The translations under genes and the position numbers were made by a program. From Parvularcula bermudensis HTCC2503 (GTDB taxonomy: Bacteria > Pseudomonadota > Alphaproteobacteria > Caulobacterales > Parvularculaceae), in contig NC_014414.1 of NCBI RefSeq assembly GCF_000152825.2, forward strand, positions 2,480,001-2,544,000: a DNA stretch of 64,000 nt, written 5' to 3'. Below the pieces are notes generated by a model. That model was not told where the DNA came from. It made no database searches and saw only the letters and a list, made by a program, of their open reading frames with translations. Position 1 is the stretch's first letter, and the number at the start of each line of letters is the position of its first letter. Below, one piece after another: positions 53,045 to 64,000 of this stretch.

Positions 53045-54254
53045 CTAGTGTGCGTGGCCGTCGCCGAAAGCGTCTTTTTCAAGCTGCGCTTTCAGGGTGA
53101 AGGCGCCCTCGGCAACGAATGCTTCGTCGGCCTCGAGCCCGGAAATGATCTCGGTATAGCTGCCTGCACTCTCTCCTGTCCGGACCTCGCGCGGTTCGAA
53201 CCCGTCATCCGTCGGGACGAAGACCGACATCCTGTCTTCAACACTGACAATCGCATCGGAGGGAACGCGCACGACGGAGCGCCCCTCTCCCGTGTCGATC
53301 CGCGCCGTTACGAACTGACCGGGCTTCAGCCTGTGTTCGGCATTGTCGACAATGACCCGCGCGGTCGCGGTGCGGGATGCCTCATTGATGACAGGCAGGA
53401 CATTTGAAATTGTCCCTTCGGCCAGGACGCGGCCATCTTCCTGCTGGAAGGTCACGGTCTGGCCTTCGCTGACCTTGCCGAGATCTTCCTTGTAGACGGC
53501 GATGTCGGCCCAGACGACGCTATCATCGATGATGACAAAGATGGGCGCGCCGCCAGCCGATACGGTTTCTCCAAGAGAAACGCTCCGCTGAATCACCTCT
53601 CCGGCAAGGGGAGCCGTCACATAGGCTTGTGCAAGCGACCCATCCGCAGCCTCATTAAGCTTGTCCAGTGTGCCATGACCAATGCCGATCGCATGAAGCC
53701 TGTTTTCAGCAGCTTCCCGGCCGGCATTGGCTGCGGCGAATGCCGCACGCGCCGACTGCAGATCGGCCTCGGCGGTGATTTTCTGCTCCCAGAGGTTTTC
53801 CTCACGCTCAAGCTCGGCTTGCGCGAGGCGCTCGGCGCTCAGGGCATTCAGATAATCGGCCTTTAGGCCGGCGAGTTCACGACTGGTCAGCCGGGCAAGC
53901 GTGGCGCCGGCTTTCACGATATCGCCTTCGCCTGCATAAAGTTGGGCAACGGTGCCCTCGACCTGTGGCGAGACCCTTGCGACACGGTCCGCATCGAAAC
54001 GGATCTCGGCCGGCAGTTCCAGCTGGCCCGAAACCGCTCCGGTCTGGGCTCGCCCGGTCCGGATACCGGCAGCTTCCGCCTCCTCGGCGGTCAGCTCGAC
54101 ATGATCGCCGCCTTCACCTTCGTGTTCGGTATGACCGCCTCCTTCTTCATGTCCCTCATGATCGTCGCCATCGGCCTCATCATGGCTTTCATGCTCCTCA
54201 TCACTACCGTCTTCGTGGTCGTCATGGCCATCTTCGGCTTGTGGGGGCGTGGTC
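53045..54254 (-). pseudogene. czcB: CzcB-like RND adaptor, N-terminus lost at an IS3 insertion
   Basis: The frame gives all adaptor core parts: a His/Asp/Glu-rich metal-binding stretch (EDGHDDHEDGSDEEHESH and following), ELTAEEAEAAGIRTG, lipoyl half-motifs round VAQLYAGEGDIVKAGATL, the hairpin, and a beta-barrel ending near 53045. But the signal peptide and first residues are replaced by the IS end near 54255. Starts available inside the gene (for example GTG 53917) would make a non-exported product. The pump CzcA behind it is intact, so the tripartite system is probably dead unless a remote adaptor is used. Confidence 0.75.
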
Positions 54255-54315
54255 TGCCTCCCGAAAAGTGGTCCGGTTGATGTGTTAGACTTGGCTCCAT
54301 GGAAGGAGCTGAGGA

Positions 54316-54594
54316 ATGGGACGGAAGAGACGAACGGCCGAGGAGATCATCGGTCATTTGCGAGAGGTCGAGGTGCGCCTGGCGAAGGGCGAGACCATCG
54401 GGATTGCCTGCCGGGCGATCGGTGTGACCGAGCAGACGTACTATAGGTGGCGACGGGAGTATGGCGGTCTGAAGGTCGATCAGGCGAAGCGGCTTAAAGA
54501 GCTTGAGAAAGAGAACCAACGCCTACGGAAGGCTGTGTCGGATCTCACGCTGGACAAGCTCATTCTTTCTGAGGCCGCAAAGGGAAACTTCTGA
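54316..54594 (+). CDS. IS3-family transposase OrfA
   Basis: A 92-residue helix-turn-helix protein (KRRTAEEIIGHLREVEVRL, GIACRAIGVTEQTYYRWRR) with a C-terminal leucine-zipper-like helix, as in IS3 OrfA. It binds the IS ends. It ends at TGA 54592-54594 just after a G GGA AAC slippery site where -1 frameshifting would join it to OrfB. Confidence 0.93.
   Translation: MGRKRRTAEEIIGHLREVEVRLAKGETIGIACRAIGVTEQTYYRWRREYGGLKVDQAKRLKELEKENQRLRKAVSDLTLDKLILSEAAKGNF
54582..54588 (+). promoter_or_regulatory. Programmed -1 frameshift site G_GGA_AAC
   Basis: In the OrfA frame the codons are AAG GGA AAC, giving the canonical X_XXY_YYZ heptamer. OrfB lies in the -1 frame and lacks an obvious start close by, so the active transposase is the OrfAB fusion. 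Confidence 0.75.
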
Positions 54595-55457
54595 GCCCCG
54601 ACCGCCGTCGGAAATGCGTCGATCACGTCACGAAGGAGCATGGCGTCTCAGAGCGCCGTGCCTGCGAGGTGGTGGGTCAGCACCGTTCGACCCAGAGGAA
54701 GCGTCCTTCGGGCCGTCCTGGCGAGAAGGCGCTGACCGGTGCCATCATTCAGCTAGCTGAGCAGTATGGCCGCTATGGCTATCGCCGGGTGACTGCATTG
54801 CTCCGGCGCGACGGATGGCACGTGAACCAGAAGCGGGTCTATCGCATCTGGCGGCGGGAGGGGCTTAAAGTACCGCAGAAACAACCGAAACGCGGGCGCC
54901 TATGGCTGAACGATGGGTCGTGCGTGCGGCTTCGGCCGGAGCGCCCGAACCACGTCTGGAGCTACGACTTCGTCCAGGACCGGACCCATGATGGAAGGGT
55001 CTATCGGATGCTCTGCATCATCGACGAGTTCACGAGAGAGTGCCTCTCGATTCGCGTCGAGCGAAGGCTCAACTCGCAAAACGTGCTCGAAGAGCTCTCT
55101 CAGCTGTTCCTCATCCACGGGCCACCGGAGAACATTCGCTCCGACAACGGACCAGAGTTCATCGCTACGGCTGTCCGGGGATGGCTCGGCAGGCTGGGCG
55201 TGACGACACTGTATATCGAGCCTGGCTCACCATGGGAGAACGGCTATTGCGAGAGCTTCAACTCGAAACTCAGGGACGAGTTCCTGGACCGGGAAATCGT
55301 CTATACACTGAAGGAAGCGAAGGCCCTCATCGAGTGGTGGAGGCGCCACTACAATCAGCTGCGGCCACACTCATCGCTGGGGTACAACCCGCCCGCACCG
55401 AAGACCATCTTGCCCGCGGGGCTCCCGCCGCCTTACTATGAAGGTGCGGCGGCATGA
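54588..55457 (+). CDS. IS3-family transposase OrfB (rve integrase core)
   Basis: The -1 frame after the slip site encodes the catalytic part: an HTH_21-like region (YGYRRVTALLRRDGWHVN) and a DDE core with Asp in WSYDFVQD, Asp in SDNGPEF and Glu in WENGYCESF (spacing normal for IS3). The frame is intact to TGA 55457. Free-standing OrfB might start at 54669. The element looks functional. Confidence 0.92.
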   Translation, partial: LLSPDRRRKCVDHVTKEHGVSERRACEVVGQHRSTQRKRPSGRPGEKALTGAIIQLAEQYGRYGYRRVTALLRRDGWHVNQKRVYRIWRREGLKVPQKQPKRGRLWLNDGSCVRLRPERPNHVWSYDFVQDRTHDGRVYRMLCIIDEFTRECLSIRVERRLNSQNVLEELSQLFLIHGPPENIRSDNGPEFIATAVRGWLGRLGVTTLYIEPGSPWENGYCESFNSKLRDEFLDREIVYTLKEAKALIEWWRRHYNQLRPHSSLGYNPPAPKTILPAGLPPPYYEGAAA

Positions 55458-56541: not shown

Positions 56542-56726
56542 TGCCCCAAACCCGGAATGAAACAAGTGCGTAAAATTCTCAAAATGGTGCGCGCGCAGCG
56601 TCACTGGGCCTCGCATGATGGGTTCCCAAGCGTTACCGTAACAAATATTTACTCGATCAACTTTCTATTCCGGCATTGAATTTGCTTTCCCTGTTGAGTT
56701 GAATCTCTCTTGGGAAACGAGGACAA

Positions 56727-57554
56727 ATGTCCCGGCTGGCAGATCATATAAGTGCCTATGACTACACATGGTTGTTGTCAGACAGCAGATGGGCCTGGGA
56801 GTTCCTGCGCCGAAACCGCCGGTTTCTTGAGGACTCGTCGCTTCCTTCCGCGAGTGAGCTTAGTTTCGCTCCCGCCTGCCATCAGATCACCCTCGTGCGC
56901 CCTAGAGCCTCTCAGGCGCTTGCTGAGCGATGGGGGCTCGCCTTCTTCCCGGATCCAGAGGATAGCGGCCTTGAAGCCGACGCGTTCTGGTCGGGAGGTC
57001 TCTATCCGAGGCGGGTTCACATGCAAGTTTCTCCGAGTGGTCCTAATGAATCCTGTGAATTCTATGATCGCACTGTTGGCATCTGCAGGATCACGCACTT
57101 CACCGACCTCGCCGGCCGCGAACAATTTCTTCTCAAGGGAAATGGCTGCGTCATTCAGGTATTCTGCACGGGCATGTCACTTCTGGCCCGCGAACCTGTC
57201 AAGCTCAGCTTCATCATCGACAGTCTCGACGAATTCCAGGCCAAGCTGAAAACGCTCCAGCGCGCCCAGCGTGTCTATGACCCGCAAGCAGAGGCGGATA
57301 TCCCGGAATGGACTCGCCATTCCTTGGCCCTTCGCAATGCACTGGTCGCACTCGATTGTCATGATGCCAAACTCTCATATTTTGAGACGGCGGGGTTCAT
57401 ATATGGCGAAGAACGGGCCCGCGAAGCCTGGGACAGCCCAAGCCGAGCGATGAAAGACGAGATGAGACGTGCCCTTGCCCGCGGCCGGGACCTGCGGGAC
57501 GGCGGTTATGCAACGCTTCTCGGACCCGTCGAAAACGCGCTTCTTTTAGCCTGA
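56727..57554 (+). CDS. DUF6499/DUF2285 protein, first paralogue
   Basis: The N-terminus has the DUF6499-like motif YDYTWLLSDSRWAWEFLRRN; the C-terminal ~80 residues form a DUF2285 helix-turn-helix-like part (EAWDSPSRAMKDEMRRAL, GRDLRDGGYATLL). Such proteins control excision and transfer genes of alphaproteobacterial conjugative elements; in ICEMlSym R7A two DUF2285 parts make the activator FseA. It is followed 52 bases later by a paralogue with the same plan. 275 residues. GAGGAC precedes the ATG. Confidence 0.85.
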   Translation: MSRLADHISAYDYTWLLSDSRWAWEFLRRNRRFLEDSSLPSASELSFAPACHQITLVRPRASQALAERWGLAFFPDPEDSGLEADAFWSGGLYPRRVHMQVSPSGPNESCEFYDRTVGICRITHFTDLAGREQFLLKGNGCVIQVFCTGMSLLAREPVKLSFIIDSLDEFQAKLKTLQRAQRVYDPQAEADIPEWTRHSLALRNALVALDCHDAKLSYFETAGFIYGEERAREAWDSPSRAMKDEMRRALARGRDLRDGGYATLLGPVENALLLA

Positions 57555-57606
57555 AGTAGAATTTTGGCACCTCTTTTGCAGCACCCGCTTGTGAAGGAGG
57601 CACCTG

Positions 57607-58431
57607 ATGAGTCCCGCCGACACACCCTCGGTCCGTATTGATCTGGATGACTACGCCTATACTTGCCGACTCTCCAGAAGTCGCTGGGCTTGGGAATTTC
57701 TTCGGCGAAATAGCGAATTCAGGCAAGCCGCCCTGCGGGCTGGCGACTCACAGATATCTGAAAAGCCAGCCTGTCATGGCATCCGGCTGCTCCGGCCGCT
57801 ATGCGACCAGATCGACGCTGAGAAATTCGGCTTGGTTTTCTTTCCCGACATAGACGCGAATGGCTATGAGGCCGACGTCTTCTGGATCCCTGCCCTCTAT
57901 GCTCGCGCCCTGACCATGCAGGTCGTACCGCGTCATCCGAGCGAGCGCGACGATATTTTCGATCAGACGATCAATGTGTGTGAAGTCACCCACCTCACAG
58001 ATCGCGTCGGCCGGGAATACCTGATGATCCGTGGGCACGGCCACAGCATCCAGGTCGCTTGTTCTGGTCTGTCACTACTCAGCGTCGAACCCGTCCGCAT
58101 GAAACTGATCATCGATAATGTGTCGAGCATGGACGAAACACTTAAAGTCATCGGCAAGGCTCAGCGTATTCTTGGCAAGGACGATTCGAGTTTCAACGAC
58201 ACCTGGACACGCTCATCGCTTGCGTTTCGCAATGCGCTCATTGCGCTCGATGCGTATGAGACCGGTCTAACTTATTTTGAAACCGCTGCCATCATCTATG
58301 GCGAGGATCGCGCCACCGAAGCCTGGCAGAGCCCCAGCCGGGCCATGAAAGACGAAATGCGCCGCGCCCTCGTGCGAGGACGTGAACTCCGGGATGGCGG
58401 ATACAGGGACCTCCTGACTGCACAGACCTGA
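57607..58431 (+). CDS. DUF6499/DUF2285 protein, second paralogue
   Basis: Same layout as the gene before it: YAYTCRLSRSRWAWEFLRRN at the start and EAWQSPSRAMKDEMRRAL, GRELRDGGYRDLL at the end; the middle (VFFPDIDANGYEADVFW, HLTDRVGREYLMIRGHGHSIQV) is also alignable. 274 residues, with GAAGGAGG upstream of ATG. A strong hairpin at 58471 ends the unit. Probably a DNA-binding regulator of the mobile element. Confidence 0.85.
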   Translation: MSPADTPSVRIDLDDYAYTCRLSRSRWAWEFLRRNSEFRQAALRAGDSQISEKPACHGIRLLRPLCDQIDAEKFGLVFFPDIDANGYEADVFWIPALYARALTMQVVPRHPSERDDIFDQTINVCEVTHLTDRVGREYLMIRGHGHSIQVACSGLSLLSVEPVRMKLIIDNVSSMDETLKVIGKAQRILGKDDSSFNDTWTRSSLAFRNALIALDAYETGLTYFETAAIIYGEDRATEAWQSPSRAMKDEMRRALVRGRELRDGGYRDLLTAQT

Positions 58432-58958: not shown

Positions 58959-59522
58959 ATGACCGCACCGCAACCTTCAGCCCCCCTTGCGGCAGACGCT
59001 GCACCCACACCTGAAACCCGCCCCCGTATCTATGTGGCCTGTCTTGCCGCCTACAATAATGGCTGCCTGCACGGGCGCTGGATCGACGCGACGACGCCTG
59101 ATGAGGTGATGGCCGAGGTCTGCGCTATGTTGGCGGCGTCGCCGCTGCCGGACGCCGAAGAATGGGCAATCCATGACTATGAAGGCTTCGAAGGCGCGCA
59201 CCTGTCGGAATATGCGAGCTTCGAGACGGTCTGCAATCTGGCCGACTTCATTGCCGAACATGGCAGGCTCGGCGCGCTGGTCCATCGCCATTTTGGCGAC
59301 GACCTTGAGCAGGCCGAAGCGTCCTTCGACGATTATGCAGGCACCTATGCGAGCCGGGCAGACTTCGCCGAGGACCTGCACCGCGACACCGGCACCGAAA
59401 TTCCCGCAGCCCTCGAATACTATATCGACTGGTCGGCGCTCGCCCGCGACATGGAGCTGGGTGGCGACATCATGGTGTTCGAGACAGGGTTCGAAGTCGT
59501 TCACGTCTTCTGGACGCGGTGA
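58959..59522 (+). CDS. ardA: Antirestriction protein ArdA
   Basis: From ATG 58959 a 187-residue acidic protein with ArdA features: RIYVACLAAYNNGCLHGRWID, WAIHDYEGF, GTEIPAALEYYIDWSALARDM split in two conserved blocks. ArdA mimics bent DNA and blocks type I restriction enzymes when the element enters a new host. Its stop overlaps the next start (GTGA). A marker of conjugative elements. Confidence 0.93.
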   Translation: MTAPQPSAPLAADAAPTPETRPRIYVACLAAYNNGCLHGRWIDATTPDEVMAEVCAMLAASPLPDAEEWAIHDYEGFEGAHLSEYASFETVCNLADFIAEHGRLGALVHRHFGDDLEQAEASFDDYAGTYASRADFAEDLHRDTGTEIPAALEYYIDWSALARDMELGGDIMVFETGFEVVHVFWTR

Positions 59523-59722: not shown

Positions 59723-60192
59723 GCTTTACCGAGCACTTCGATGCCTACGCCTGCGAAGGCGATGCGATCAGTTGCGAGGCAAAGGGCTTCATTGTCACGG
59801 CCCGGATTGTTGCCGATGACTGCCTCGATGCGCCGGACCAGCGGCAGGATGGGTTCTGGCCGTCGCTCTACAAGGATGCGCCCGGCTTCATCGGGCCGGG
59901 CAACAGCTTCCGCCAGCGCTTCGCCGTGGCGCAGGCCAAGGCGGAAGCCGTCATGGAAGCATGGCGCAAGAGCGAGTGGTTCTATTGCGGGATCGTGCTT
60001 TCGGTCGAGCGCGACGGCATTGAACTGGACCGTCATGCCGCCAGCCTCTGGGGCGTCGAATGCAACTATCCCGGCACGGATAACAGCTATCTCACCACGG
60101 TTGCGAACGAGCTGCTGCCGGAGGCGCTGGACGCAGGGCGTGCCGCAGCCTCGCGGCTTGCGGCGACCGTGACAGGCTGGGCCGCGACATGA
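59719..60192 (+). CDS. Hypothetical protein of the mobile element (157 aa)
   Basis: An acidic soluble protein (EHFDAYACEGDAISCEAKG, WFYCGIVLSVERDGIELD, WGVECNYPG) of a type commonly seen between ardA and parB-like genes in conjugative elements. Overlaps both neighbours by four bases. Function unknown. Confidence 0.75.
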   Translation: MSFTEHFDAYACEGDAISCEAKGFIVTARIVADDCLDAPDQRQDGFWPSLYKDAPGFIGPGNSFRQRFAVAQAKAEAVMEAWRKSEWFYCGIVLSVERDGIELDRHAASLWGVECNYPGTDNSYLTTVANELLPEALDAGRAAASRLAATVTGWAAT

Positions 60193-62213
60193 GCGCGGCC
60201 CGCACCCTCACTGAATTGCTCGGCCCACGGCCCCGTATGACGCTTGTCGTTGCCGAGGCCCAAGTCGCCGAAATCTGGGTCGAGGGCCGCGCGCCGCTGA
60301 TCACGATCCGCGATTATGACTGGGGCGAGACCGACCCCCAACCAAGCCGGGACGCGGACGGCTTTCCCTTCACCAAGATCAACTGGAGAGGCCCCGCGTG
60401 GGCGCTGGGTCTCGCGCTTTACCCGCCAGAAAAGGAGACCTCCATGGCACAGCCCGACCTCAAACACATCCCGCTCGACGAGCTTCGGATTTCCAAACTC
60501 AATATGCGGCATGGGCGCAAGAAGCCGGACGTATCCGACATTCTGCCGTCCATCCGGGAGAGCGGATTGCGTCAGACTTTGCTCGTTCGCCGCGAAGGCA
60601 AATATTATGGCGTCATCGCCGGACGCCGCCGTTTTTTTGCGCTCAAAGAAATCGCGAAGGAGACGGGCGAGGTGCCGTTCGTTCCATGCGCGATCATGAC
60701 TGAAAAGGATGCGGCCTCCGCGATTGCGGCATCTGTCATCGAAAATGTCGGACGCCTGCCTGCGACAGAAATGGAGCAATATGAGGCGTTCAAGCGCCTC
60801 AACGATGAAGGCAAGGCGCTGGAGGATATCGCCAGCTTCTTCGGAGTGACTGAGCTTCTGGTGCGCCGTGTGCTCGCGCTTGCTTCGCTCGACGAACCGA
60901 TACGGAAACTCTACGCCGAAGACGAACTGGACCGCGAAACGATCCGCGCGCTTACGCTTGCGACGCCAGAACAGCAGGCCGAATGGTTCCGTCTCTTCCA
61001 GAGCGAAACCGAACGCGCCCCGATGGGGCGGTCGTGCAAGGCTTGGATCACGGGCGGAACGACGATCACGACCGACAAGGCCTTGTTCGATCTTGATGCC
61101 TATGAGGGACAGGTCACTGCCGACCTCTTTGGCGAGCATGGCGTCTTTGCGGATGCGGATCAGTTCTGGAAGGCACAATCCGCCGCGATTGCCGAGCGGG
61201 TCGAGGCCCACAGGGCCGACGGCTGGAGCGATGTTATCTGCCTTGAGCGCGGGGCGTATTTCCACCGCTGGGAGTATGTCCAGTGCGCCAAGGAAGATGG
61301 CGGGAAGGTCTTCATCGAAATCCGCCATGACGGGACGGTCCAGTTCCACGAGGGACAAGTAACCTCGGCCGAGGCCCGCAAGCGGCAACAGGGTTCGAAG
61401 GGTGAAGGCGATGCCGTTCCGGCAGCCGTTCGGCCAGAAATGTCCGGCCCGCTCGCGGAATACATCCTGCTTCATCGCCACGCAGCTGCTCAGGCGAGTT
61501 TGGCCACATCCCCCGCGATTGCTCTCCGCTTGATGGTGGCGCATGCCATGGCGGGGAGCGCGCTTTGGGATGTCCGGCCTTTCGAACTTCGCGCCCGCAA
61601 GGATGAGACGCAGGCGAGTGTGGAAAGCGGGGTATCTGTAGCTGCACTGGCCGAAGCGACGGCGCAGATCGACGCCCTGTTCAAGGCGCTCAACGTCAGT
61701 CCAGCGCTTCGCCGGAACGGCGATGACTACCGCTTGTGCGAGCTTTTCTCCGCGCTGCTCGCCATGTCGGACGGGGAAGTGTTGCAGGTGCTTGCGACGG
61801 TGATGGCCCGCACACTCGAGGCCGGAAATGGCATCGTGGAAGCCGTCCTGCATGTCTGCGGCACCGATCTTTCGGCGGCTTGGAAACCAGACGAGGCCTT
61901 CTTCGATCTCACCAAGGACAAGCGCGCCATCAATGCGATGATTGGCGATATTGCAACCCTGTCGCTCGCGGACTCCTGCCGCGCCGAGACGGGCAAGGCG
62001 CAGAAGCAGGTGCTTGCGAACCGGATCAGCGGGGAGGGTTGCGAGGCCAATCCTGACTGGCGACCGAGCTGGATGCAGGTGCCGCCGACACGCCTTGTTG
62101 AAGGGGCCGGGTCACCACCTGCCGATGCATGGACACGGATCGCGGGACTATTCGAAGCGGAGGCAGCAGCCACGCCCGATGAGACACCTGAGACGCGACA
62201 GGACGCTGCCTGA
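60189..62213 (+). CDS. parB: ParB/RepB/Spo0J-type protein, fused in frame to a small upstream protein
   Basis: The frame from ATG 60189 encodes 674 residues. Residues 1-85 (LTELLGPRPRMTLVVAEAQ, ITIRDYDWGETDPQP, INWRGPAWALGL) look like a separate small protein; residues 86-674, from ATG 60444, are a ParB-like protein with the N-terminal box (IPLDELRISKLNMRHG, LVRREGKYYGVIAGRRRFFA), an HTH region (DIASFFGVTELLVRRVLALA) and a long C-terminal part. AAAGGAG lies just before ATG 60444, so ParB alone can also be made from there. Likely role in partition or element regulation; a terminator hairpin follows. Confidence 0.88.
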   Translation: MSAARTLTELLGPRPRMTLVVAEAQVAEIWVEGRAPLITIRDYDWGETDPQPSRDADGFPFTKINWRGPAWALGLALYPPEKETSMAQPDLKHIPLDELRISKLNMRHGRKKPDVSDILPSIRESGLRQTLLVRREGKYYGVIAGRRRFFALKEIAKETGEVPFVPCAIMTEKDAASAIAASVIENVGRLPATEMEQYEAFKRLNDEGKALEDIASFFGVTELLVRRVLALASLDEPIRKLYAEDELDRETIRALTLATPEQQAEWFRLFQSETERAPMGRSCKAWITGGTTITTDKALFDLDAYEGQVTADLFGEHGVFADADQFWKAQSAAIAERVEAHRADGWSDVICLERGAYFHRWEYVQCAKEDGGKVFIEIRHDGTVQFHEGQVTSAEARKRQQGSKGEGDAVPAAVRPEMSGPLAEYILLHRHAAAQASLATSPAIALRLMVAHAMAGSALWDVRPFELRARKDETQASVESGVSVAALAEATAQIDALFKALNVSPALRRNGDDYRLCELFSALLAMSDGEVLQVLATVMARTLEAGNGIVEAVLHVCGTDLSAAWKPDEAFFDLTKDKRAINAMIGDIATLSLADSCRAETGKAQKQVLANRISGEGCEANPDWRPSWMQVPPTRLVEGAGSPPADAWTRIAGLFEAEAAATPDETPETRQDAA

Positions 62214-63041: not shown

Positions 63042-63233
63042 TCTTCTTTCATGCCGAAAGGGTCTGCAACGAAGGTGCTGATACGCCTATCAGCGCTGCA
63101 TTCTAACGTGAGGGTTCTTTGGGGATTCAAGGGTGTCGCGAGCGTGTGGTGCAAGTTAGACACTCTTAATCTGAGGATGAGTTGGCAGTCTGTCAGGGCT
63201 TCGAGTTGCGTAGAGGAAAGGAGAAGCAACGCT

Positions 63234-63488
63234 ATGACAGAGACAAATAGAAGTGGAGAGGAGCTTCGACCCAAATCAAACCTCCCAACCCCGACCGAAT
63301 GGATGAACACGGATGAAACCGCTGACCATCTCGGCCTCAAACCGAAGACCCTGGTCAATATGCGTTCGCTGGGAACAGGCCCGGTTTATCACAAGATCGG
63401 CGCCAAGGTCTGGTATCGCGGCAAGGACATCATCGCTTACACCAATGGACGTAGGTTCATGGGGACAGGCCTTCGCGATGAGTCGTAG
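63234..63488 (+). CDS. Excisionase-like helix-turn-helix protein
   Basis: From ATG 63234 (GGAAAGGAG upstream) an 84-residue protein with the MerR/Xis-like HTH_17 pattern: WMNTDETADHLGLKPKTLVN, then the wing with VWYRGKDIIAYTN. AlpA/Xis-type proteins of this size sit beside traF in conjugative elements and may steer excision or transcription. The next gene starts inside its last codons. Confidence 0.85.
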   Translation: MTETNRSGEELRPKSNLPTPTEWMNTDETADHLGLKPKTLVNMRSLGTGPVYHKIGAKVWYRGKDIIAYTNGRRFMGTGLRDES

Positions 63489-64000
63489 AATCGCGTTGTT
63501 AGGCATGGGATGCGGGCTAGGCCTCATGGTCTCCGCCAGCATTATCAACCGGTCCGACTTCATCTGGAACCGGACGGAAAGCATGCCCAAGGGCCTTTAC
63601 TTTGTTGACCGGTCGGCGCGAATTTCGACAGGCGATCTGGTAGCGTTTGCGCCCTCGGATGAGGTTCGACATTGGCTGAACGATGAGGGAATTGTTGGCT
63701 CCGACTGGCCCTTGTTGAAGCATGTTGCGGGCCTATCCGGTGACGAGATTTGCAGATGCGATACGCAGGTCTCCATCAACGGGATCACATCTGTTGATGC
63801 GCTCAAAGTAACCGAGTCCGGCAGCGCCCTTCCCGTCTGGCAGGGCTGTCAGACCCTCAAAGCCGGCGACGTTTTCCTGCTCAACTCTCATCCCCTGTCA
63901 GTCGATGGACGATACTTCGGCGTTCAGGACGGCGCGCGCATCATTGGCGTCGCCAGGTCCATATGGACTTATGGCAACCGGTCGGCTGAGGATCAGGCGA
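63478..64000 (+). CDS. traF: Conjugative transfer signal peptidase TraF (3' end outside window)
   Basis: ATG 63478 overlaps the end of the HTH gene by 11 bases. The 174 residues seen include one membrane helix, then S26-family motifs: ESMPKGLY with catalytic Ser35 and LLKHVAGLSGD with Lys81, plus the later LNSHPLSVDGRYFG block. TraF processes and cyclises the conjugative pilin in RP4-type systems. Its presence marks the start of a transfer region continuing to the right. Confidence 0.9.
   Translation, partial: MSRRIALLGMGCGLGLMVSASIINRSDFIWNRTESMPKGLYFVDRSARISTGDLVAFAPSDEVRHWLNDEGIVGSDWPLLKHVAGLSGDEICRCDTQVSINGITSVDALKVTESGSALPVWQGCQTLKAGDVFLLNSHPLSVDGRYFGVQDGARIIGVARSIWTYGNRSAEDQA

Follow-up and report, generated by a model that had tools for sequence, protein, structure and literature searches.

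The closest described relative of the locus analyzed here is FseA of ICEMlSym(R7A), in which msi172 encodes a DUF6499 domain, msi171 encodes a DUF2285 domain, and a +1 frameshift joins both into one FseA (PMC10359603). The gate on this system combines quorum sensing, the +1 frameshift, and the antiactivator QseM, a lone DUF2285 domain (PMC10359603). About 61% of the 4709 FseA homologues catalogued in the same work are split by a frameshift site (PMC10359603), making unsplit FseA, which accounts for the remaining ~39%, an ordinary form. In R7A, rdfS precedes traF and the relaxase gene (PMC11963761). Conjugative elements must select the few cells and occasions in which transfer takes place, and most of one FseA clade appears to use for this a lock other than that of R7A, namely a predicted sigma-54 promoter that would stay off unless a host activator burns ATP.

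Two intact FseA-type genes in tandem

The window is a 64,000-nucleotide stretch (bases 2480001-2544000) of the 2.90-Mb single-contig genome of Parvularcula bermudensis HTCC2503. It contains two genes on the forward strand, copy 1 (P1; 56727..57554, 275 aa) and copy 2 (P2; 57607..58431, 274 aa), separated by 52 bp and each predicted to encode a single-ORF FseA-type activator. Copy 1 runs from DUF6499 through a middle part to DUF2285. In a Pfam profile search, both copies score above the gathering threshold for PF20109 (Trans_reg_dom), which we take to be the DUF6499 region renamed, and for PF10074 (RovC_DNA-bd), presumably the former DUF2285. The N-terminal AWEFLRRN motif is exact in both, and the C-terminal recognition-helix stretch, SPSRAMKDEMRRAL.RGR.LRDGGY, is common to both with two differences between the copies. 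These results bear out the sequence-only reading, which had described two intact genes of this length and spacing with common terminal motifs. An AlphaFold model of copy 1, built on 12 alignment rows, has a mean pLDDT of 49, too low for structure-based searching, with only the C-terminal helices mostly above 70.

The copies are 53% identical over 255 amino acids by BLASTP (E 7e-99). Identity is unevenly spread, at 53% in DUF6499, 39% in the middle part, and 70% in DUF2285, and DNA identity is 55% across the whole genes and 65% within DUF2285. Such values, together with synonymous sites that are saturated or have dS above 2, rule out a recent duplication as well as gene conversion. Compared with L026, the most diverged pair among other genomes (82% identical to the window's in copy 1 and 90% in copy 2), NG86 estimates are dN 0.14 with saturated dS for copy 1, and dN 0.066 with dS 0.713 for copy 2. 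Both copies thus look to be under purifying selection in this comparison.

Because the frameshift in R7A yields one FseA from its two domains, a 275-aa copy is the equivalent of the whole R7A fusion. The earlier statement that R7A joins a DUF2285 pair was wrong on this point, since Msi172 (DUF6499) and Msi171 (DUF2285) are two parts of one protein (PMC10359603). Reading the window's pair as a split or frameshifted FseA is likewise ruled out, each copy being one complete ORF. The unusual feature is the tandem duplication rather than the single-ORF FseA.

Ten residues of R7A FseA, taken from the list in PMC10359603, were checked in the two copies: Trp32, Glu33, Phe34, Arg36, Arg37, Asp210, Trp235, Arg243, Arg247, and Arg248. 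Nine are kept in the two copies, including the residues of the Arg-Asp contact, Trp235, and the Arg247/Arg248 pair for DNA binding, and the tenth, Arg243, is Lys in each. A QseM-like identity for either copy is ruled out by the presence of DUF6499 and DUF2285 in both. The suggestion of an activator/antagonist pair of the QseM kind finds no support in proteins that keep DUF6499 together with the contact, tryptophan, and arginine pair named above.

Antagonism could take another form, in which one full-length copy forms inactive mixed dimers and so restrains the other in place of the missing QseM. The genome contains four DUF2285 proteins at E up to 0.1, all FseA-like, and a search with the same model at the same threshold found no QseM-like protein in it, although the model finds one elsewhere; restraint might therefore come from another source. 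The middle domain has also diverged most, at 39% identity against 70% in DUF2285. The net charge of DUF2285, near zero in both copies (-1 to +2) compared with +7 in R7A FseA (PMC10359603), might seem to point the same way, but 47 full-length clusters span -3 to +10 and values near zero are common among relatives, which rules out charge as a sign of an antagonist. With all checked activation and DNA-binding residues kept in both copies, Lys standing for Arg243, we consider this form of antagonism distinctly unlikely and favor two activators.

Distribution and phylogeny of the pair

A profile scan of genome contigs returned 21 loci. Twelve (L016-L027) hold the pair, eight (L028-L035) have a single copy in the fetched stretch with 50-60% identity to copy 1, and the last (L036) has a distant, split FseA. 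An order-wide search matched 65 of 299 genomes and added two pair carriers (G490 and G586), bringing the pair to 15 genomes including the window's; the named ones are Hyphomonas, Henriciella, and relatives. Its presence in 14 genomes besides the window's indicates that the pair is not a chance arrangement. At the family level, 17 of 62 genomes have a match. An even sample of the class (387 genomes) yielded 32 with a PF20109 match, and in this sample no genome other than the window's has two such matches close together on one contig.

In a tree of 47 clusters, the two copies group with the single copies of Hyphomonas (support 88/83). The sequences show no sign of an inactive copy or of a split between unrelated clades, the outcomes that the earlier reading had set against itself: both ORFs are intact and both belong to this group. 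Joining copy 1 and copy 2 as a clade is not rejected by the data (p-AU 0.316), and the placement of copy 1 with the single copies has a support of only 72/73. The single-copy element at L033 has the same backbone order as the window's element, at the same place, which fits duplication of fseA within this element lineage.

A second tandem pair is found in two of the 17 family genomes with a match (G020 and G043; loci L094 and L095), where two full-length FseA frames lie 1723 bp apart and are sisters in the tree (100/100). At L094, two coding stretches match with 68-75% DNA likeness, about 87 nt of upstream sequence are also duplicated, and the pair precedes ardA, encoded by the same strand, by ~6.4 kb. 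Both this pair and the window's consist of tandem full-length genes, and the L094/L095 duplication arose independently, indicating that fseA has been duplicated in tandem at least two times.

This recurrence bears on whether the copies are redundant, with copy 2 adding product under a stronger promoter and having no separate role. Independent duplication in the L094/L095 lineage fits selection for dosage, the DNA-reading helices are near-identical, and the copy 2 promoter looks the stronger. Copy 1 is full length in all 15 pair genomes and copy 2 in 13: in L024 copy 2 is altered after residue 266, and in L023, a MAG, it is frameshifted inside the DNA-reading helix, suggesting that copy 2 may be dispensable or that the assembly is in error. 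Weighing against redundancy, about half of all residues differ between the copies, and copy-specific sequence has been kept between the window and L026 (82% and 90% by orthologue). Redundancy is possible, though somewhat unlikely.

Plasmids were searched twice. One search gave five records with distant FseA relatives, and the other gave 11 records whose listed best places all fall within an IS3 stretch. An IS3-family element occurs twice in the DNA studied, at window positions 54091-55457, upstream of the pair, and at 11513-12825 of L005, in the transfer region before traG.

Predicted sigma-54 promoters upstream of fseA genes

Each copy is preceded by a sequence with the layout of a sigma-54 promoter, in which GG and GC are separated by the spacing of TGGCAC-N5-TTGCW. 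The copy 2 site (57565..57580, forward strand) is a perfect TGGCAC-CTCTT-TTGCA inside the 52-bp gap, a feature that the sequence-only reading had overlooked. From the -12 geometry, transcription of copy 2 would start at about 57591, just ahead of a Shine-Dalgarno-like AAGGAGG read at 57594..57600 on the same strand. The copy 1 site (56671..56686, forward strand) reads CGGCAT-TGAAT-TTGCT; it has GG and GC and five of seven scored positions, departing from the consensus at the other two. The two sites lie 26 nt (copy 2) and 40 nt (copy 1) before the start codons. In L026, copy 1 has TGGCAT-AAACC-TTGC at nearly the same place, and copy 2 has TGGCAC-CCTGC-TTGCA, with changed spacer and flanks. The layout matches that of E. 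coli sigma-54 sites such as those of prpB and glnK (PMC4591121).

Exact TGGCAC-N5-TTGC occurs once on the two strands of the window, at the copy 2 site. The 2.9-Mb genome has two occurrences of the full pattern TGGCACNNNNNTTGCW (TGGCACN5TTGCW), each directly upstream of an fseA gene; a reversed control pattern also occurs twice, so the count is chance-like and only the placement is informative. The second exact site, TGGCACGCATTTTGCT (G000:C1:1064696-1064711), belongs to the fseA ORF at 1064656-1065585 of another element in the same genome, and the true start of that gene must be downstream of the listed ORF start. There, an HTH gene that is rdfS-like by place directly follows fseA, and a single sigma-54 operon may comprise the entire run.

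The pattern was then followed across FseA relatives. Of 205 frames matching the profile, 161 have an AWEF-like motif, which reduce to 90 distinct proteins or, at 85% identity, to 58 clusters; the 37 clusters scoring at least 200 bits are taken as the FseA clade, leaving 21 others. With a site defined by fixed GG and GC plus at least four of seven further positions, 31 of the 37 clade clusters have one at -118 to -125 from the AWEF codon, against a background of ~0.15 per 340 nt in 200 kb of the window's genome. Within 330 nt, the spacer of 5 is found in 32 clusters, whereas spacers of 2, 3, 4, 6, 7, and 8 are found in 5, 2, 7, 8, 7, and 8. At six or more of seven positions, the contrast is 17 of 37 for spacer 5 against 0-1 for the other spacers, and the antisense strand has a site in one of the 37. 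Spacer letters vary among the 32 sites. Because the scan required GG and GC, their constancy proves nothing alone, and the evidence lies in the common place and the spacer control. Counted by distinct proteins, 58 of 66 have the site; the 37 clusters are related and so represent fewer than 37 independent events.

The six clade clusters without such a site are u48, u57, u60, u62 (which has a five-of-seven site at -159), and the two that make up the second tandem pair, u23 and u24. The upstream scan found no sigma-54 site at either copy of the L094/L095 pair. Among the 21 other clusters, six have a spacer-5 site, three of them at six or more of seven positions (u63, u66, and u87), suggesting that the trait may extend to some relatives beyond the clade. 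When sites at -128 to -98 are counted, its distribution on the tree requires four changes in total.

An alternative is that TGGCAC-N5-TTGC is the site of another protein and no sigma-54 promoter. Consistent with this, no conserved enhancer palindrome was found in the upstream sequences of the clade (n = 31), where palindromes are not above shuffles. Some 7- and 8-base words do exceed shuffles, for example GAGTTGGA in 7 of the 31 sequences, and in u22, u30, and u32 this word can be read as the beginning of a divergent gene encoded by the opposite strand. The exact -24/-12 spacing in the spacer control, the near-fixed place before the two start codons here, and a host equipped with RpoN and a GAFTGA activator all speak against another protein, making this alternative highly improbable and leaving a sigma-54 promoter as the preferred interpretation.

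Two further features were noted in these upstream regions. The word GGGAGTTGGAGCGC(G/A)GGCC is common upstream of several fseA genes, including those of u22, u30, and u32 (L040, L161, and L163), and on the opposite strand it resembles a gene start (ATG/TTG GCC ...). Such a start suggests that fseA may be divergent from its neighbor, which is trbB in L097-L099. In several single-copy relatives, the -12 element is directly followed by GAATTC or GAATTT, which may be an overlapping repressor site.

Element backbone and a candidate FseA box

Downstream of the pair, genes follow in the order ardA, ParB-like, DUF736, HTH_17, S26 peptidase (traF), and relaxase with DUF3363, and then TraG/VirD4, TrbB, TrbE, TrbL, TrbI, and a large serine recombinase, as in a Trb-type conjugative element. 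The earlier description of full-length paralogues in a layout unlike that of R7A holds, and these paralogues are FseA-related and lie on a conjugative element. The next gene after the pair is an ardA-like antirestriction gene (58959..59522, forward strand; PF07275, E 5e-46), followed by the ParB-like gene of the backbone (60189..62213, forward strand; PF02195). The HTH_17 gene (63234..63488, forward strand) is the first before traF and the relaxase gene and so occupies the rdfS place; it is the putative target of the pair. The traF frame (63313..64000, forward strand; PF10502) passes the window end, and its true start lies further in. The nearest recombinase is the large serine recombinase, and no tyrosine integrase was found within ~98 kb of it, so the product of the rdfS-like gene may not act in excision in this element. 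Two further FseA-like genes lie in the genome, on two other conjugative-looking loci.

To the left of the pair, the cargo at window positions ~29000-56541 resembles metal-resistance genes by reading of the translations, with a P-type ATPase, RND efflux, a MerR-like protein, and a short CDF transporter just before copy 1.

A candidate FseA box, GTGTCG-N19-(A)GACAC, lies at 63133..63163, 101 bp before the rdfS-like start. The 1.59 Mb of fetched DNA contain 26 occurrences of the repeat GTGTCG-N19-CGACAC with up to one mismatch, and 20 of them lie 100-101 bp before an rdfS-like start in this element family (13 distinct loci, the rest being the same genome fetched twice). It is present in all 20 fetched family loci where the rdfS-like gene was found. 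Of the remaining repeats, one at L214 precedes a distant rdfS-like match by 141 nt, and the other five are unrelated. The window's repeat has one mismatch, the half-site AGACAC at 63158-63163, which is also seen in several carriers; the rest have CGACAC. At L033, where a single FseA has SRAMKDEMRRA of the recognition helix in common, the repeat is exact although the spacer letters differ. The published FseA box has inverted hexamers with a spacer of 15-16 bp (PMC10359603), compared here by geometry only with half-sites 19 bp apart when counted as GTGTCG/CGACAC.

Outside the family, the Mesorhizobium plasmid L251 has an exact GGTGCG-N19-CGCACC before an rdfS-like gene, and L250, also a Mesorhizobium plasmid, has only one-mismatch repeats with other letters and spacings. 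Among six distant rdfS-like loci, L214 has the exact repeat, L217 and L036 have a two-mismatch form at the same spacing, and L192, L096, and L215 have two-mismatch matches at other spacings only, indicating that such weak matches arise by chance.

The number of repeats matters for a division of labor, in which the copies would switch on different promoters and one alone would act on rdfS. Their separate promoters and diverged middle domains would suit such an arrangement. Nearly identical recognition helices argue against it, as does the finding of one repeat only (up to one mismatch) in the 100 kb scanned. A division of labor is thus very unlikely, and action of both copies on one repeat is favored.

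Host regulators

The host genome has an rpoN gene. A search for the sigma-54 activator domain gave two proteins with E of 1e-10 or below, both encoded outside the element. The first is NtrX, scoring above its NCBIfam cut-off and lacking GAFTGA by reading of the sequence. The second, L106, has GAFTGA and falls below every NCBIfam cut-off among those listed, with a score of 327 against 750 for FlbD. An L106-type protein, 55-72% identical, is present in all 25 further hosts (24 with FseA genes of the 37-cluster clade, plus G051 with the FseA type of the second element of the window's genome), with GAFTGA in 21 and GSFTGA in four. Being common to every sampled host, it offers no specific evidence. 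A search of the genome for LuxR-type autoinducer-binding domains found none.

TacA drives stalk genes in Caulobacter. Four such activators are described there, NtrC, NtrX, FlbD, and TacA, with GAFTGA only in FlbD and TacA (PMC10274813), and TacA is activated by phosphotransfer from the c-di-GMP-stimulated kinase ShkA (PMC7885107). As a lead, L106 may be TacA-like by elimination, its FlbD score being low, rather than by comparison to the Caulobacter protein.

A model for the tandem pair

Opening of a sigma-54 promoter requires an activated, ATP-driven enhancer-binding protein, which would place the gate at transcription start. It is on balance probable that both copies are FseA-type activators, separately gated by sigma-54 and acting on one repeat before rdfS, traF, and the relaxase gene. 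The two genes are tandem paralogues of the activator that starts excision and transfer, and each would have its own -24/-12 promoter, that of copy 2 being perfect and that of copy 1 looking weak. Once a host activator fires, both FseA copies would be made. As homodimers or mixed dimers, they would bind one shared inverted repeat upstream of rdfS and switch on rdfS, traF, and the relaxase gene. Binding to the same repeat is expected from the almost identical DNA-reading helices. In RovC, one dimer interface lies within residues 231-246 (PMC7535981), and the conservation of the C-terminal part between the copies makes mixed dimers plausible; a heterodimer of copy 1 and copy 2, as the sequence-only reading had proposed, is possible. 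The pair thus offers a natural test of whether FseA dimers can mix. No report of sigma-54 control of FseA was found in the accessible parts of the open-access literature, including PMC10359603, PMC11963761, and PMC12316311, and a subscription paper could exist.

A bolder proposal, which we consider unlikely as a whole, is that host sigma-54 controls the master transfer switch in an element clade of this order, probably via a TacA-like activator, that the pair functions only as a heteromeric activator with its composition determined by two unequal sigma-54 promoters, and that transfer is tied to differentiation. If transcription is gated as proposed, the trigger would be a host signal, perhaps a developmental one.

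Comparison with known systems

RovC of Yersinia (PDB 6XZ5) matches the N-terminal part of the window's proteins (E 3e-4), and the C-terminal Pfam domain is the same by its name, RovC_DNA-bd. Unlike the predicted activators described here, RovC is hexameric, activates a type VI secretion cluster (PMC7535981), and lacks helix alpha1 (PMC10359603). QseM shares DUF2285 with both copies, but it has ~80 aa and no DUF6499, whereas the copies have both domains.

FseA of ICEMlSym(R7A) differs in several respects. The window has a single ORF without a frameshift in each of two tandem copies, predicted sigma-54-type promoters in place of the TraR-driven promoter of R7A, a serine recombinase nearby, and a genome in which neither a LuxR-type receptor nor QseM was found. 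The two systems are nevertheless alike in DUF6499 with AWEFLRRN, the middle domain, DUF2285, and the equivalents of the Arg-Asp contact, Trp235, and Arg247/Arg248, and both belong to conjugative elements with an rdfS-like gene before traF and the relaxase gene.
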